DNA from: an uncultured Clostridia bacterium
GTDB taxonomy: Bacteria > Bacillota > Clostridia > Christensenellales > UBA1242
Reading direction: 5' to 3'
Length of the DNA stretch: 34,602 nucleotides
Assembly: GCA_944332315.1 (NCBI GenBank)
Contig: CALVJT010000010.1
Coordinates: 1-34,602, forward strand
The translations under genes and the position numbers were made by a program. Each line of letters starts with the position of its first letter. Position 1 is the stretch's first letter. Under the pieces are notes generated by a model that saw only the letters and a program-made list of their open reading frames with translations, ran no database searches and was not told the DNA's origin. Below, piece by piece: positions 6,150 through 34,602 of this stretch.

Positions 6150-6889
6150 TAGGGGAAAGCCTTTTCCCCTATAACCCCTCGGGTGCGATGGCGCACTCCC
6201 ATGGTCTTGGTTAGTACTACGCGCTAGTTTTGTGCACTTTATTTATTTTGTGCTAAGCCGACTTTATACGCTTTCTATCTTTGCGATGGCGCACTCCCAT
6301 GGTCTTGGTTAGTACTACGCGCTAGTTTTGCGCACTTTATTTATTTTGTGCTAAGCCGACTTTATACGCTTTCTATCTTTGCGATGGCGCACTCCCGTGG
6401 GCAGGACAGGCGTCCTGCACCTGTGGTCATTGCTTGAGTGCTAGTTTATAGTTGTGTTTTCTATTTGCAGTTAGTACTTGGCGAGCTTATATATAGTCGC
6501 CCTTGAACTGTGGTCATAAGTTGAGTGCTAGTTTGTGATTTATATTTCTATTTTAATGTAGCGCTCGGCGAACTTGTGTATTGAGCGCCTTTTTCTAGTT
6601 TGCTTAAAACTAACTACAAATAAAATATATAAATATGCCCAAACACAACTAAGACTATGCCATAGGTGGGGAAACATAAGTACGCACCTGCAGTATACAC
6701 AAATAGAAAACAAATATAAATATCAGTACTCAACCCCGACCACAGGTCAAGGACACCTTATATGAGCTCGCTGAGCACTAACACCTAATAGAAAAACAAC
6801 TATAAATAAGCACCTAACCAAGACCACGCCATGGGTGGGGCATCCCACCCCGTGGGGGTGCGGGGGCGGTGGTAGCCCCTGCGTAATAA
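6150..6889. repeat. Interspersed fold-back repeat block 1
   Basis: The largest of eight related intergenic blocks. It begins with TAGGGGA...TCCCCTA and contains two complete tandem copies of a 98-base unit (starts 6185 and 6283) plus a truncated third at 6381. It also has the perfect hairpin GCAGGAC-AGGC-GTCCTGC at 6401-6418, followed by a tail ending TGTGGTC. Its right half carries inverted modules (GACCACAGG and GACCACGCCATGG), so the block as a whole folds back on itself. It lies between alr and the 3' end of the deaminase gene. No coding potential is supported. Confidence 0.75.
6185..6400. repeat. 98-base tandem repeat inside block 1
   Basis: Starts at 6185, 6283 and 6381 each read GCGATGGCGCACTCCC. 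The first two units are nearly identical over all 98 bases; the third stops after about 20 bases, where a different hairpin module begins. Each unit contains the hairpin GTGCG-ATGG-CGCAC or its near copy followed by CCCATGGTC. Confidence 0.9.
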
Positions 6890-23812: not shown

Positions 23813-24967
23813 TTATAGATTTTTTACTTTATCGACATACTTTTTGTACTTATCGTACTGAGTTTGGTCGACTGATGCATCGAGGTTTTTAACTGCTTCT
23901 TTGGTCTTTCTATCAAGGTTTTTAGGGAATTCCACTTTAACCGTTACGATTAAATCGCCTCTTGTAGACTTGCGCAACACTGGTATTCCTTTGCCTTTTA
24001 GCTTAAAGGTTGTGCCTGTTTGCGTAAGTTCGGGTATAGTGAGCTCTAGCTTGCCTTCAAGCGAAGGTATTATAACTTTGCCACCTAAAATGGAAGTAGT
24101 AAATGGGATAGGCACTTCTATCTTCACATCGTAGCCATCGCGCTCAAGCATAGGGTGTTTTGCCACTTTAACTTTGAGCATCAAATCTCCGTCATAGCCT
24201 CCGCTAATTCCGCTATTGCCCTCTCCGCGCAGAGTTAGAATTTGTCCGTCATCGATGCCTGCTGGCACGGTAACTTTAATGGTTCGCGTAACTTTATTTA
24301 TACCCCTGCCGTTACATTCGCTACACTTTTCCTTTATAATTTTACCTTTGCCGTTACAGGTTTTACATACCCCGACAGATGTCATTTGCCCAAACAGTGT
24401 GCTTTGGGTGTACCTCACCCTACCGCTACCGCCACACTCTTTACAGGTTTCGTACGCGGTGCCGTTTTTGGCGCCGGTGCCTTTACAGTGGGTACAGGTT
24501 TCCTCGCGGGTGATTTTTACCTCTTTATCGCACCCAAAGCACGCCTCGTTGAATGACAAATTTATTGTACTGTTGATATCGCTTCCATCGCGCGCTTGGC
24601 TTTGCGCCCCTGCACTCGCCCTTGCCCCGCCACCGAAGCCTCCGAATAAATCGCTGAAAATATCGCCAAAGCCACCAAAACCGCTAAATCCGCCTTGCGA
24701 ACTTTGGCTGAACCCTCCGCGCCCGCCAAAGCCACCAAAGCCGGTTGGGCCATCGGCGGAGCCATAGGTATCGTAGTTTTTACGCTTTGTTTCGTCCGAA
24801 AGCACGCTGTATGCCTCGTTTACTTCCTTAAACTTTTCGGCGGCGCCTTGAGGGTCATCCTTATTAAGGTCGGGGTGATACTGCTTTGCTTTTTTGCGGT
24901 AGGCGGACTTAATTTCATCTTGCGTGGCGTTTTTGGATACGCCTAGCACATCATAATAATCTGCCAT
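23813..24967 (-). CDS. dnaJ: Chaperone DnaJ (Hsp40)
   Basis: Type I Hsp40 co-chaperone that delivers clients to DnaK and stimulates its ATPase. The J domain at residues 1-70 has the HPD tripeptide (31-33). It is followed by a Gly/Phe-rich linker (about 75-125). Four zinc-binding motifs ([32 protein letters not shown]) occupy about 150-215, and then come the two C-terminal client-binding barrels. The length, 384 residues, is normal. It is the last gene of the operon, 18 bases after dnaK, with AAGGAA as ribosome binding site and a strong terminator downstream. Confidence 0.98.
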
Positions 24968-24985: not shown

Positions 24986-26842
24986 TTATTTATTTTCGGT
25001 ATTTTCGTCTTTCTTTTCTTGATAATCTTTTTCGTCTACAATAATTTCGTCATCTTTGTTTTCGTTGCTTGCGCTTGCTTGCTCGCCTTCGTTTGCGGTT
25101 GCGTTTGCTGTTTGGTAAAGTTTTGATACTACATCGCCACTTTCTTTGCTGAGTTCGTCGATTGCTTTGCGGACATCGTCTACATTATCCGATTTCATAC
25201 CCTCTTTTGCTTTTTCGAGCGCTTCGTTAAGTTTCTTTTTATCGTCCTCGCTAATTTTATCGCCGTTTTCACGAAGCAATTTTTCGATTGCAAGAATCAT
25301 ACCATCGCATTGGTTCTTTACATCTACAAGTTCCTTGCGCTTTTTATCCTGCTCGGCATATTCCTCGGCTTCCTTAACGGCTTTATTGATATCCTCCTCT
25401 TTGAGGTTGCTGGATGCGGTGATTGTGATATTTTGTTCTTTATTAGTGCCAAGGTCTTTAGCCGATACATGCACAATGCCGTTTGCATCGATATCAAATG
25501 TAACTTCTATTTGAGGCACACCGCGTGGAGCTGGTGGTATATCATTAAGGCTGAATCTGCCAAGCGTTTTATTATCTGCAGCAAATTCGCGCTCGCCTTG
25601 CAATACATGGATATCCACACCCGGTTGGTTATCAACTGCGGTTGAGAATATTTGCGATTTTTTGGTTGGTATGGTGGTATTTCTTTCGATAAGTTTTGTG
25701 AACACGCCACCCAATGTTTCGATGCCGAGTGATAGTGGTGTTACATCAAGTAGCAACACATCCTTAACTTCGCCACCCAATACACCGCCTTGTATTGCTG
25801 CGCCCATTGCCACGCACTCATCTGGGTTGATGCCTTTGAATGGGTCTTTGCCAATCAAGTTTTTAACCGCTTCAACTACGGCTGGCACACGGGTTGAACC
25901 GCCCACCAAAATTACTTTATCAACTTTATCGAGTGTTAAGCCTGCATCTTTGATGGCATCCTTTGTAAGTTCGATAGTTTCCTTGATATAATCGGAAATT
26001 AAGTCCTCGAATTTTGCTTTTGTAAGTTCGTATTCTAGGTGCTTTGGACCCGTTGCATCGGCTGTGATATAAGGCAGGCTGATAGATGTTTTGTTTGCGC
26101 CAGACAAATCGATTTTTGCTTTTTCGGATGCTTCCTTTAATCTTTGTAGCGCTGTTCTATCCTTTGAAAGGTCTATGCCGTTCTTTTCCTTAAAATCTTG
26201 AACCAATAGGTCGATAATTTTATTATCAAAGTCATCGCCACCGAGGCGGTTATTGCCCTTTGTAGCCAAAACTTCGAACACACCATCGCCTATTTCCATA
26301 ATTGATACATCAAATGTACCACCGCCTAGGTCGTAAACGCATATTTTTTGGTTTTTGTTTTCTGATTTATCAAGTCCGTACGCAAGCGCTGCTGCGGTTG
26401 GCTCGTTGATAATTCTCAAAACATTCAAGCCTGCAATTTTACCTGCATCTTTGGTTGCTTGCCTTTGCGAATCGGTAAAGTACGCTGGCACGGTGATAAC
26501 TGCTTCGGTCACTTTTTGCCCTAGGTACGCTTCGGCATCCTGTTTTAGTTTGCTAAGTATCATTGCGCTGATTTCTTGTGGGCTGTACGATTTATCATCG
26601 ATTTTTACCTTGTGGTCGGTGCCCATTTCGCGCTTGATTGATGCCACTGTGTGCTCGGGGTTTGCCACTGCTTGACGCTTTGCCATTTGCCCCACCAAAC
26701 GCTCGCCATCCTTTGTGAATGCCACTACCGATGGCGTTGTGCGCGCGCCTTCTGCGTTAGGTATTACGGTTGCTTCGCCCCCCTCCATAACTGCTACGCA
26801 TGAGTTTGTTGTTCCTAAGTCTATTCCTATAATTTTTGCCAT
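24986..26842 (-). CDS. dnaK: Chaperone DnaK (Hsp70)
   Basis: The Hsp70 ATPase and client-binding chaperone. The nucleotide-binding domain has [15 protein letters not shown] at the start, [20 protein letters not shown], the [12 protein letters not shown] phosphate loop and [12 protein letters not shown]. The linker [13 protein letters not shown] and the beta-sandwich ([30 protein letters not shown]) follow, then the helical lid and an acidic disordered tail. The length of 618 residues is usual for Gram-positive DnaK. It is the third gene of the operon, but nearly 490 bases separate it from grpE and repeat block 6 fills most of that gap. AGGGAG precedes the ATG. Confidence 0.98.
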
Positions 26843-26979: not shown

Positions 26980-27307
26980 TAGGGGCACTACCCGTTCCCC
27001 TACAACCCCTTAGGGTGCGATAGCGCACTCCCGTGGTCGGGTTAGTACTAAGCGACAGTTTTGTACACTTTATTTTTTTTGTGCAAAGCCAATCTAATCG
27101 CTTTCTACCTGTGCGATGGCGCACTCCCGTGGTCGGGTTAGTACTAAGCGTTAGTTTTAGTGCCAAACAATTTACTTTTTGCTTTTGCAAAAAAGTAAAA
27201 TTATTTTTGTGTTTTGTACAAAACTGGGCAAGTTAACATATAAGACCACAGGTGCAGGATGCTATCCTGCTCCTAGGGTTATAGGGGATGGAAAATCCCC
27301 TAAAAAA
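26980..27307. repeat. Interspersed fold-back repeat block 6, inside the heat-shock operon
   Basis: It lies between grpE and dnaK in the direction of transcription. The left part has TAGGGGCACTACCCGTTCCCCTA and two tandem modules of the hairpin TGCGAT-(A/G)GCGCA followed by CTCCCGTGGTCGGG. The right part carries, inverted, the tail ACCTGTGGTC, the hairpin GCAGGAT-(3)-ATCCTGC (27254-27270) and TAGGGGA...TCCCCTA. The two halves are partly complementary, so the whole block can fold into a long hairpin. Confidence 0.78.
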
Positions 27308-27329: not shown

Positions 27330-28652
27330 TTACTTAGCGATTTTTACAATGCTGTGTCTTATCACCTTGCCATCCATAGTGTAGCCGGTTTCGATTTCCT
27401 CAATTATGGTGCCACTAGGCTGTGTGCTTTCCTCTGCCACAACGACATCGTGAAAGTTAGGGTCGTAGTGCGCGCCGAGGCACATAATAGGCTCGATATG
27501 GAAATCGGCAAAAGTCTTTTCAAAAATCTTGCGAATGAGTTTTATCCCCTCTAAGCTCTGCTCATCTTTGATATATTCCATAGCGCGGTCCACCGCATCA
27601 AGCGCGGGCAGAAAGTCGAGAACCGCCTCCCTCACTCCCTCGCTTTTGGCTTGCTTAACCGCCTCGGTGTTGCGCCTGCGATAGTTATCAAAATCGGCTT
27701 GAATTTGCCTTGCTAGCGCCAAGTACTCGTTTGCCAAATTCCTTTCGCTCTCGCACGCGTTTTGCTCGGGTTGCTCGCCGTGGTCGCATCCGCAATCGCA
27801 CTGATGTTCGCCCTCACCGTGATGCTCGCACTGGTGTTGCCCATCGTGATGTTCGCATCCGCAACCGCATTGGTGCTGATTATTGTGATGGTGGTGGTGA
27901 TGGTGATGCCCATTGTGCGCTTGATTGTGCTGGCTTGCATCACCTACATTCGAACTGTTATTTATTGTTTGATTTTGAGTTTTTTTTTCATTATCGTCAT
28001 TGCCATCATCACTGCCACCCGCAAATGCTGTTTGGCTAGATTCTTGACAATGCTCGCAGTTGCATTGACCGCCATCTGTTGTTTGAACATTATCTTGACA
28101 GCCGCAGTCGCAACCATCTTTGCAAAGCTCTACTCCACTGGCGCATCCGCAGTCGCATCCATCTTTGCAAGCATCGATTTTACTTGCGGGGTCTGCGCAT
28201 CCACAATCGCAACCATCTTTGCAAAGCTCTACTCCACTAGCGCATCCGCAGTCACAGCCATCCTTGCAAGCATCGATTTTACTTGCGGGGTCGGCACAAC
28301 CGCAGTCGCATCCGTCTTTGCAAAGTTCTACTCCACTGGCGCATCCGCAGTCACAGCCATCCTTGCAAGCATCGATTTTACTTGCGGGGTCGGCGCATCC
28401 ACAATCGCAACCATCTTTGCAAAGTTCCACTCCACTGGCGCATCCGCAGTCACAGCCATCCTTGCAAGCATCTATTTTGCTTGCGGGGTCTGCGCATCCG
28501 CAGTCGCAACCATCTTTGCAAAGCTCTACTCCACTAGCGCATCCGCAGTCACAGCCATCTTTGCAGAGTTGCAATTTATCTAAAAGTGTTTTTGCAATTA
28601 CCATATTAATAATAAGTTGCCCGTTTACAAATTGCCCTTTTAGTTTAATCAT
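27330..28652 (-). CDS. grpE: GrpE with a Cys/His-rich metallothionein-like N-terminal extension
   Basis: Nucleotide exchange factor of DnaK. The GrpE core is residues about 306-440 (LARQIQADFDNYRRR, FLPALDAVDRAMEY, GAHYDPNFHDVV, EEIETGYTMDGKVIRHSIV). Ahead of it is an extension of about 300 residues. After a 29-residue start it has ten copies of CKDGCDCGC at residues 30-185, arranged as four 33-residue tandem repeats plus a final half. A Cys/Asn/Gln linker follows, then a His-rich part (242-291) with a run of eight His and further CGCGC and CDCGC motifs. About 51 Cys lie in the extension. Such spacing strongly suggests metal binding. Typical GrpE has about 180-200 residues and no Cys cluster. 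The ATG is certain: it overlaps the hrcA stop by eight bases, and AAAGGAG lies inside hrcA. Confidence 0.95.
   Translation of the reverse strand: MIKLKGQFVNGQLIINMVIAKTLLDKLQLCKDGCDCGCASGVELCKDGCDCGCADPASKIDACKDGCDCGCASGVELCKDGCDCGCADPASKIDACKDGCDCGCASGVELCKDGCDCGCADPASKIDACKDGCDCGCASGVELCKDGCDCGCADPASKIDACKDGCDCGCASGVELCKDGCDCGCQDNVQTTDGGQCNCEHCQESSQTAFAGGSDDGNDDNEKKTQNQTINNSSNVGDASQHNQAHNGHHHHHHHHNNQHQCGCGCEHHDGQHQCEHHGEGEHQCDCGCDHGEQPEQNACESERNLANEYLALARQIQADFDNYRRRNTEAVKQAKSEGVREAVLDFLPALDAVDRAMEYIKDEQSLEGIKLIRKIFEKTFADFHIEPIMCLGAHYDPNFHDVVVAEESTQPSGTIIEEIETGYTMDGKVIRHSIVKIAK
28098..28565 (-). repeat. 99-base tandem repeat encoding the Cys-rich motifs of GrpE
   Basis: Four full 99-base units and a partial fifth, encoding CKDGCDCGCASGVEL plus CKDGCDCGCADPASKIDA. 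Units differ by scattered mostly synonymous changes, so copy number may change by recombination while the protein motif is kept. Confidence 0.95.
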
Positions 28653-29718
28653 ATATATCTCCTTTTTTATCGTCCGCGTTTGCTAATAAATCTGTTTTGT
28701 TGAATTCGTCCACTATAAACTTTAGTGCGCCCGAAATTTTTGCGTAGTCCATTCGTTTTGGCCCGATTATGCCCACCGAGGCTATGTTTTCGCCATTAAT
28801 TTTGCAGTGCGCTTTGGCAATGGTACAATCGCTCAGACGCTCATCGGGGAGTTCCTCGCCAATTGTAAACTCAATGTCATCCTCGCTATCGTCATCGATA
28901 AGCGCTTTTAATTCGTCTTTATCCTCTAGCAATTTCAAGATATCCTTTGCCTGCTCCACATTTTGGTATTCAGGATTTTTTAGTAGTTTTGTAGCGCCCT
29001 TGCTGTACACGCCGTTTTGCGCGTACCTTTTTGTGATGTTTACCAGCGATTGTAGCACATACTCAAAAAAACTTGCGTATTCGTTGAGTTCTGCCAAAAT
29101 TTCTTGGTGCTTAGTTTCGATGCTATCCACCATTTGCCCAATGCTCATACCCACAAACTTGCTCGATAGCACGCGCCCTGCATCTATGCAAGATTGCTCG
29201 TCCACGCTTTGCTCCAGTTCAAGGGTGTTGTTCAGTAGGCCCCGTGGGGTTTGTATCAGCATTAGCGCTTGATTTGTCATAAGCGGTATAATTTTTATGC
29301 TCAGAATTTCGAGTTTATCTATTCCGCCCAATGAAACCACGGTTGGATAATCGGTGACTTCGCTTATTTTTTCGGCTACTACCTTTATAAGTTCGCTCAA
29401 ATTTATAGTGCGTTGCTCAAACACGCTTTTAATTTTCATAAGCCCTTGCAGGTCCGCCCGACAGTTATCCTTTATTGTGTTTACAAAAAAGCGATACCCT
29501 TTTGTGGTAGGCACGCGCCCGCCCGAGGTGTGCAACTGCTTCAAGTACCCCATTTGCTCCAACGCGTTGAGTTCGTTGCGCAGGGTGGCACTCGAAAGCG
29601 CGGTTTCGCTTTTTTGCACCATTGCTCCGCTGGTTATAGGACTCGCGTTTTCTATGTAGTCCTCCACCGCTTGATAAAGTATTTGCTTTTTTCTATCGCT
29701 CAACTCTATATCACTCAC
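28645..29718 (-). CDS. hrcA: Heat-inducible transcription repressor HrcA
   Basis: A 357-residue repressor that binds CIRCE and holds off dnaK and groE operons until heat shock titrates GroEL. The N-terminal winged helix runs LSDRKKQILYQAVEDYIENASPITSGAMV, then SSATLRNELNALEQMGYLKQLHTSGGRVPTTKGYRFFV, followed by the GAF-like middle and C-terminal domains (PDERLSDCTIAKAHCKING, VGIIGPKRMDYAKISGALKFI). The start is a GTG at 29718 behind AAAGGGGG. It is the first gene of the operon, with a CIRCE element and a consensus promoter directly upstream. Confidence 0.97.
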   Translation of the reverse strand: MSDIELSDRKKQILYQAVEDYIENASPITSGAMVQKSETALSSATLRNELNALEQMGYLKQLHTSGGRVPTTKGYRFFVNTIKDNCRADLQGLMKIKSVFEQRTINLSELIKVVAEKISEVTDYPTVVSLGGIDKLEILSIKIIPLMTNQALMLIQTPRGLLNNTLELEQSVDEQSCIDAGRVLSSKFVGMSIGQMVDSIETKHQEILAELNEYASFFEYVLQSLVNITKRYAQNGVYSKGATKLLKNPEYQNVEQAKDILKLLEDKDELKALIDDDSEDDIEFTIGEELPDERLSDCTIAKAHCKINGENIASVGIIGPKRMDYAKISGALKFIVDEFNKTDLLANADDKKGDIYD

Positions 29719-29765: not shown

Positions 29766-29792
29766 TTAGCACTCTTATCCTTAAAGTGCTAA
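29766..29792 (-). promoter_or_regulatory. CIRCE operator of the heat-shock operon
   Basis: TTAGCACTC, nine bases, AAGTGCTAA: the classical inverted repeat with one mismatch in the second arm (A for G at its first position). It overlaps the expected transcription start, the usual position for HrcA repression. Confidence 0.95.
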
Positions 29793-29796
29793 CCGT

Positions 29797-29825
29797 ATTA
29801 TACACCTATTATATGCCTTTGTCAA
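29797..29825 (-). promoter_or_regulatory. Consensus sigma-A promoter of hrcA-grpE-dnaK-dnaJ
   Basis: On the minus strand TTGACA, a 17-base spacer and TATAAT, both perfect. Transcription would start inside CIRCE. Confidence 0.92.
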
Positions 29826-34203: not shown

Positions 34204-34241
34204 TAAATTTGATGCTATTTATACATATTTATATAGGCTTT

Positions 34242-34602
34242 GCGCGTGGAGCAACAGCTGTGCGCGGGTGCATCGGCTGGGCGTGTGGTGCAATGGCTGT
34301 GCGTGCGTGCATCGGCTGGGCGCGAGTGCATCGGCTGGGCGTGTGGTGCAACAGCTATGCGCGGGTGCATCGGCTGTGCGTGTGGATCCGTGGCTGTGCC
34401 GTGGGTGGAATGCCTGTGCGTGTGGAGCAATGGCTGGACGGGGGTGCATCGGCTGGGCGCGGGTGCAATGGCTGGGCGCGTGGAGCATCGGCTGTGCGCG
34501 TGGAGCATCGGCTGGGCGCGTGGTGCAAGGGCTGGACGCGGGTGCAATGGCTGTGCGTGGGTGCAATGGCTGGACGCGGGTGCAATGGCTGTGCGCGTGG
34601 AG
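34242..34602. repeat. GC-rich 19/20-base minisatellite, cut by the window edge
   Basis: About eighteen degenerate units of the form GCGCGNGTGCATCGGCTGG or GCGYGTGGWGCAAYGGCTGT follow each other to the end of the window. The region is strikingly G+C-rich compared with the rest. Several frames are open only because stop codons are excluded by the unit sequence, and the predicted peptides (His/Pro/Arg/Ala-rich) have no start signal, so I do not call a gene. Confidence 0.88.

Follow-up and report, generated by a model that had tools for sequence, protein, structure and literature searches.

A metallothionein-like tail on the co-chaperone GrpE, widespread in a family of uncultured Clostridia, as a candidate metal buffer

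The stretch of DNA analysed here, referred to below as the window, comprises the 34,602 nucleotides of contig CALVJT010000010.1 from an uncultured Clostridia bacterium. Its heat-shock operon contains a grpE gene whose 440-residue product is GrpE in its C-terminal part only, the remainder being a long Cys- and His-rich N-terminal extension, or tail, for which we consider a role in metal binding. The gene and its parts are the following.

27330..28652, minus strand: grpE with a Cys/His-rich N-terminal extension, 440 amino acids, ATG start (open reading frame translation, Pfam)
28575..28649, minus strand: hydrophobic segment, residues 2-26, kept across the genus; a predicted helix of low confidence, with a predicted local distance difference test (pLDDT) score of 46-61 for the block (alignment, AlphaFold2 model)
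28098..28565, minus strand: ten CKDGCDCGC motifs, residues 30-185, spaced alternately by 15 and 18 residues in a 33-residue unit (sequence)
27741..28097, minus strand: spacer with His-rich and CGC clusters (CNCEHC, CGCGC, CDCGC), residues 186-304 (sequence)
27885..27908, minus strand: eight consecutive His, residues 249-256 (sequence)
27330..27764, minus strand: GrpE stalk helix, bundle and beta domain, residues 297-440 (Pfam, PDB sequence matches, AlphaFold2, Foldseek)

A first-pass annotation of the window had described this gene as a GrpE fused to a metallothionein-like Cys/His-rich region, with ten CKDGCDCGC motifs in 33-residue repeats and a run of eight His, and the sequence agrees with it on each of these points. 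The Pfam GrpE model PF01025 matches residues 296-440 only (107.3 bits against a cut-off of 25.8), and this is the single GrpE match across the 1.33-Mb genome, which is 98% complete. Core and extension form one open reading frame, the Cys-rich part being fused to GrpE rather than a small protein of its own. Of residues 1-304, 51 are Cys, 19 His, 55 Asp/Glu and 21 Lys/Arg, so that the figure of about 51 Cys in all given by the annotation is correct for the extension and one short for the whole protein, which has 52. The GrpE core contains a single Cys, and the neighbouring HrcA and DnaK contain four each in 357 and 618 residues, respectively. The hydrophobic residues 2-26 precede the Cys array throughout the genus and were not seen among the listed tails of other genera.

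Variation between the repeat copies is confined to silent positions: all 13 variable codon columns of the four complete 33-residue units, and all 8 of the ten 9-residue motifs, are synonymous, columns that are not fully independent events given the shared ancestry of the copies. Such synonymous-only variation means that the array is translated in this frame and that the peptide is under selection, which rejects a chance origin of the Cys-repeat array at the level of its coding sequence. The same observation bears on the proposal that the tail is a functionless, neutral low-complexity expansion of a disordered N-terminus. Tandem duplication is indeed evident, copy number varies and a disordered GrpE N-terminus tolerates change; nevertheless, the restriction to synonymous differences, a Cys content of 18% of tail residues and the enrichment of particular Cys spacings in 87 tails of many different sequences (see below) make a neutral origin extremely improbable. 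The variation in copy number is seen in P0001, a near-identical GrpE flagged as one of the window's own proteins, which at 341 amino acids is 99 residues (three 33-residue units) shorter and has 4 motifs in place of 10; its repeat number is either variable or was collapsed in assembly.

An assembly chimera, the scenario in which relatives would lack the extension, is ruled out because all five genomes of the genus (that of the window and four others) carry the CDCGC extension; in one of them, G004, it is split over two contig ends with Cys motifs on both. Independent proteins in a set of 5.8 billion also carry it: the 20 matches at E up to 1e-5, among at least 7995 candidates scored and with P0001 as one of them, all combine a GrpE domain with a Cys-rich N-terminus.

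A search of the GrpE proteins of relatives for Cys-rich N-termini, as the first-pass annotation had proposed, found them well beyond the genus. A GrpE match was obtained in 291 of the 309 genomes of the family, from which we examined 139 GrpEs together with 22 from other families of the order. The start codon was taken as the upstream-most start with a ribosome binding site, and a protein was called tailed when it had at least five N-terminal Cys, a threshold of our own choice. By this definition 89 of the 139 family GrpEs are tailed, and 64 have at least ten N-terminal Cys, in a sample that is not random: high scorers are favoured, genera are unevenly represented, and weaker GrpEs are under-sampled because matches were ordered best score first. 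An earlier start rule gave 87 of 139. Two proteins with four Cys (G010 and G256, the latter with two CxC) were counted as tail-less, loci L275 and L314 were left out, and duplicate loci (L031/L034, L017/L046, L018/L044, L022/L037/L150 and L023/L047) were counted once. At least one tailed member occurs in 23 of the 40 genera of the family, whereas among the 22 GrpEs from other families of the order only one has five or more N-terminal Cys and none has ten. Among the best 80 of 359 GrpE loci from named genomes, with titles mostly of uncultured Clostridia, Clostridiales or related Bacillota, 21 have at least five N-terminal Cys; these loci overlap with the family genomes examined and are counted separately. 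For two of these GrpEs, titled 'Clostridiales bacterium' (L065 and L078, whose N-termini contain 6 and 7 Cys), an origin outside the family is possible. Five family genomes (G020, G089, G118, G127 and G136) gave no GrpE match though 97-98% complete, possibly through loss, divergence or assembly gaps. Judged from the genomes, the tailed GrpE is real, widespread in the family and selected.

In a comparison of the window's tail with 60 relatives, matches at E up to 0.001 were confined to its own genus, and the tails of different genera are therefore not recognisably one sequence. On a FastTree phylogeny of 161 GrpE cores (140 columns, many forks open, tail state assigned by the earlier start rule) tail state changed at least 22 times, 12 of these changes being forced by starred branches, as against 51.8 changes with shuffled labels. 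The tail has thus been gained or lost repeatedly.

The chemistry of the tails is more constant than their sequence. Taken together, 87 tails comprise 7253 residues, of which 18.4% are Cys, 29% Asp/Glu, 6% His and only 1.2% Phe, Tyr or Trp. Relative to 200 shuffles, CxC is enriched (585 against 200.8, standard deviation 12.5), as is CxxxC (275 against 126.4, standard deviation 10.1), whereas adjacent Cys pairs are depleted 6.5-fold (39 against 252.1, standard deviation 12.7) and CxxC 2.6-fold (61 against 159.2, standard deviation 12.0). Metallothioneins are characterized by CxC clusters and few aromatic residues, and CxxC is the usual spacing in thiol switches and zinc ribbons. The Cys spacing of the tails thus resembles metal-thiolate coordination more closely than a CxxC redox switch, and the retention of spacing where sequence is not retained is what selection for metal-thiolate coordination would be expected to produce.

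These spacings also bear on oxidation sensing, a function that the first-pass annotation had entertained. As a thiol redox sensor or sink, the tail would form disulfides under oxidation and tune GrpE, in the manner proposed for Cys87 of human GRPEL2 or for Hsp33. In favour of such a role, Hsp33 is found in only 2 of the 309 family genomes (G019 and G032), the window's genome having no HSP33 match, as against 17 of 24 other genomes of the order, and its near-absence leaves the function of a redox chaperone vacant in the family. GRPEL2, whose Cys is described as redox-sensitive in an excerpt of PMC12987570, offers a precedent. The depletion of CxxC and of adjacent Cys argues in the opposite direction, and the richness in His would go unexplained. 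A layout that contains CxxC is typical of thiol redox switches such as Hsp33. A replacement of Hsp33 by tailed GrpE was rejected for want of support within the family: Hsp33 has been lost whether or not the GrpE is tailed, and in the two genomes that retain it GrpE bears a tail, of 7 Cys in one and 8 in the other; its distribution within the family thus gives oxidation sensing no help, and we regard this role as quite unlikely.

In an AlphaFold2 model built from 20 sequences, residues 30-294 have a pLDDT below 50 and the tail is predicted to be disordered, whereas the core scores about 90, with the stalk helix at residues 297-360. A Foldseek search at E up to 0.001 returned 12 matches, all of them GrpE structures (for 1dkg_B, a TM-score, TMt, of 0.81 and E of 1.2e-9). 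Model and matches together place the tail at the N-terminal end of the stalk helix, where the DnaK-binding core would stay free. The N-terminus of a GrpE is typically an unstructured stretch of 40-50 residues; it has a part in the release of substrate from DnaK, through a mechanism that is under dispute (PMC12987570). The location of the tail at this terminus raises the possibility that GrpE is a metal-gated exchange factor, in which metal occupancy of the tail would alter nucleotide exchange or substrate release on DnaK, so that GrpE would sense metal stress by slowing or speeding the cycle. An analogous effect is known for the folding helper SlyD, whose isomerase activity in vitro is lowered when nickel binds its tail, according to an excerpt of PMC10653786. 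Structures, on the other hand, put the GrpE N-terminus away from the substrate-binding domain (PMC12987570), and tails whose Cys number anywhere from 5 to 51, and which are repeatedly gained or lost, would be odd for a tuned allosteric switch. Metal gating is also at odds with the presence of a similar tail on an unrelated enzyme, and we consider it possible, though unlikely.

That enzyme is a 2,4-diaminopentanoate dehydrogenase (PF19328) of the same genus, which ends in a Cys/His-rich C-terminal tail such as HGCDCGCHEHHCDCGDDDCSCGC. In the window's genome it lies at the following position.

G000:C21:61112-62314 (loci L279, L177): 2,4-diaminopentanoate dehydrogenase (PF19328)

All five genomes of the genus encode the dehydrogenase tail, G001 on a fragment, and it is missing from the eight other homologues fetched from the 36 genomes searched, six from the family and two from the order. 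A similar tail on an unrelated dehydrogenase favours a generic metal-binding role over a switch specific to GrpE. A broader notion, that the tail is a module common to many proteins, was rejected: a search with the GrpE tail of G110 gave five proteins from 49 candidates, all GrpE, and one with the dehydrogenase tail gave two proteins from 22 candidates, both dehydrogenases. The pattern CxCGC occurs at 34 places in the window's own genome (4 in the control reading), 12 of them within grpE; the 30 places fetched include two other long open reading frames, the remainder being short frames or none. Near G000:C6 27004-27036 (L159) there is a collagen-like protein made of Gly-Pro-Thr repeats, which has CCNCGCDCGCGC close to the N-terminus.

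The genes and signals that surround grpE are listed below.

28659..28663, minus strand: AGGAG, ribosome binding site of grpE, within hrcA (sequence)
28645..29718, minus strand: hrcA, heat-shock repressor, overlapping grpE by eight bases (Pfam HrcA, 144.7 bits)
24986..26842, minus strand: dnaK, 3' of grpE on the same strand (Pfam)
23813..24967, minus strand: dnaJ including its zinc domain (PF00684 match; Pfam)
29766..29792, no strand assigned: operator of the type CIRCE (controlling inverted repeat of chaperone expression), one mismatch to the consensus (motif match; matched in 0 of 100 shuffles)
29797..29825, minus strand: promoter-like TTGACA-17-TATAAT, 12 of 12 matches, upstream of CIRCE and hrcA (motif scan)

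The order hrcA-grpE-dnaK-dnaJ, all on one strand, constitutes a heat-shock operon context. The annotation's placement of the start, fixed by the eight-base overlap with hrcA and a ribosome binding site inside that gene, stands, with ATG as start codon and AGGAG as the site. Promoter-like sites number 12 in the region against 6.6 (standard deviation 2.6) in shuffles, and the one listed is alone in matching at all 12 of 12 positions. This site and the CIRCE operator, neither of them mentioned in the first-pass annotation, lie upstream of hrcA and lead us to predict that the hrcA-grpE operon, and GrpE with it, is under heat-shock control by HrcA. Production of a tail-less GrpE from an internal start appears unlikely: no in-frame ATG occurs from codon 17 to the GrpE core, and a TTG at codon 306 has AAAGGA just two bases upstream, a poor spacing. 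Two repeats were also noted elsewhere in the window. An intergenic repeat, dispersed and about 98 bases long (GCGCACTCCCRTGGTC...GTTAGTACTA-like, as judged by eye), occupies positions 27010-27160, between grpE and dnaK, and 6184-6400, and a G+C-rich tandem repeat of about 19 bases lies at 34236-34600, at the contig end.

A P1B heavy-metal ATPase scores above cut-off in 146 of the 309 family genomes; the tests used the 145 genomes with E under 1e-100. Among the 139 genomes examined, such a pump is present in 33 of 89 with a tailed GrpE and in 32 of 50 with a tail-less one (Fisher p 0.0027), and within the five genera that contain both types the figures are 25 of 65 and 13 of 15 (Cochran-Mantel-Haenszel p 0.0016). 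For Zn/Cd-type pumps alone they are 32 of 89 and 28 of 50 (p 0.032; Cochran-Mantel-Haenszel p 0.0065), after the removal by eye of nine genomes whose TIGR01512 matches were weak or split, five of these genomes being within the 139. None of the five genomes of the window's genus has a Zn/Cd pump of the counted grade. This negative association between tail and pump is suggestive support for metal buffering at the genomic level. Ten of the 145 pumps were subtyped, eight to the Zn/Cd subfamily and two to copper, for which reason a Zn/Cd reading of the tail is preferred over one in which its metal would be Cu(I).

Our favoured explanation, to which we assign a probability of roughly 0.6, is that the GrpE tail serves as an on-board, metallothionein-like buffer and sink for metals of the Zn/Cd type. 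The disordered Cys/His-rich tail would bind soft metal ions, for example Zn(II) and Cd(II), as metallothionein does, and GrpE, for which heat-shock regulation is predicted, would buffer metal beside DnaK and DnaJ. Mammalian metallothionein binds 7 Zn per 20 Cys, and by extrapolation from this ratio the 51 Cys of the window's tail could accommodate about 17 ions per chain. Two benefits may be envisaged. A protein induced by stress could sequester metal in bulk in these small genomes, in which a Zn/Cd pump is often missing, and the machine formed by DnaK, DnaJ and GrpE would be shielded locally from inhibitory metals. In vitro, refolding by DnaK-DnaJ-GrpE is inhibited by Cd(II), Hg(II) and Pb(II), and the effect of Cd(II) is probably exerted via the DnaJ zinc domain (Sharma 2008, cited in an excerpt of PMC10699150). 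Metal binding is supported indirectly, by Cys spacing, composition and a pump association that is non-significant after phylogenetic pairing, and it is from these that we infer the binding, the metal and the benefit.

Several observations weigh against a metal buffer. Nine pairs could be formed on supported branches of the tree, and on average 3.1 differed in the opposite sense for tail and pump and 0.2 in the same sense, with a median p of 0.25. Three of the six tail-less genomes in the largest genus form one clade, so the within-genus pump test overstates independence. Pumps are still present in the 33 tailed genomes counted above, and tail-less genera such as g2, g5 and g6 mostly lack them (2 of 9, 0 of 5 and 0 of 5 genomes, respectively). 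A Pfam search with residues 1-307 at E up to 10 gave no match, hence no described metallothionein family, and the prokaryotic metallothionein PF02069 was found in 0 of 309 family genomes; these two results also rule out that the tail is a known metallothionein that had been overlooked. The uneven, score-led sampling described above counts on the same side. Finally, 50 of the 139 family GrpEs have fewer than five N-terminal Cys, and the tail is therefore dispensable. This last count, together with 21 of the 22 GrpEs from other families of the order, also goes against a role as zinc donor, in which the tail would supply zinc to DnaJ, for its zinc domain, or to nascent zinc proteins on which DnaK acts. 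The adjoining DnaJ does have its zinc domain, and metallothioneins can donate zinc (excerpt of PMC10612145); with so many GrpEs lacking a tail, such a donor is not generally needed, and we hold this role to be very unlikely.

Beyond the metal buffer that we favour, a more far-reaching formulation would have the family wire metal homeostasis into its Hsp70 system, with GrpE as metallothionein and exchange factor in one, its Zn/Cd-loaded tail gating the DnaK cycle and replacing P1B pumps in small genomes; we offer this as a speculation and think it rather unlikely. There is no consensus on what the disordered GrpE N-terminus does (PMC12987570). Tails that probably bind metal, dozens to hundreds of residues long and often gained or lost, provide natural variants for studying a link between metal stress and protein folding. 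If the metal-buffer reading is true, housekeeping proteins can carry metallothionein function in a tail, out of reach of searches directed at small metallothioneins. The first-pass annotation knew of no GrpE with this architecture, and we concur: a Cys-rich GrpE is apparently undescribed, none being evident from the titles and abstract starts of the open-licence papers listed in our searches, and a 2025 review devoted to GrpE-like proteins uses neither 'metal' nor 'zinc' in its main text (PMC12987570).

The closest known systems are folding helpers with metal-binding tails. In Helicobacter pylori, a His/Cys-rich extension of the GroES protein HspA binds nickel in vitro, and its deletion lowers nickel content and raises nickel sensitivity (excerpt of PMC3856676). 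HspA resembles the present GrpE in being a sole co-chaperone with a Cys/His-rich extension, but it is a GroES, its extension is C-terminal and it is dedicated to nickel, whereas here the carrier is GrpE and the extension is N-terminal, reaches 304 residues and 51 Cys and is dominated by CxC. SlyD, likewise a folding helper, has a variable His/Cys-rich tail that binds nickel, zinc and cobalt, the E. coli tail having 13 His and 6 Cys and binding up to seven nickel ions (excerpt of PMC10653786). It differs from GrpE in its unrelated fold, in a C-terminal tail dominated by His rather than Cys, and in its tie to hydrogenase maturation. Searches of the 440-residue protein against Pfam and PDB sequences matched only GrpE, with no homology to GroES or FKBP. 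The [NiFe] hydrogenase PF00374 was found in 0 of 36 family genomes and 1 of the 60 searched overall, a search that left urease outside its scope; a role in hydrogenase maturation like that of HspA or SlyD is therefore unlikely, and an HspA-type nickel tail was rejected. Bacterial metallothioneins buffer zinc and contain His (excerpt of PMC10612145). The tail is Cys-rich like metallothioneins at large (bacterial SmtA, animal and plant), has His as the bacterial types do, and shares their CxC clusters and scarcity of aromatic residues, but metallothioneins are free small proteins, whereas here the tail is fused to a co-chaperone and has no sequence match to them. With canonical GrpE and human GRPEL2 the protein shares the same core and fold, and it departs from canonical GrpE, with its 40-50 unstructured N-terminal residues and, in the other families of the order, almost always fewer than five N-terminal Cys, in the tail. 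It belongs among the GrpE proteins, as one with a non-homologous, metallothionein-like tail, and by its presumed working principle it groups with the metal-tailed folding helpers.
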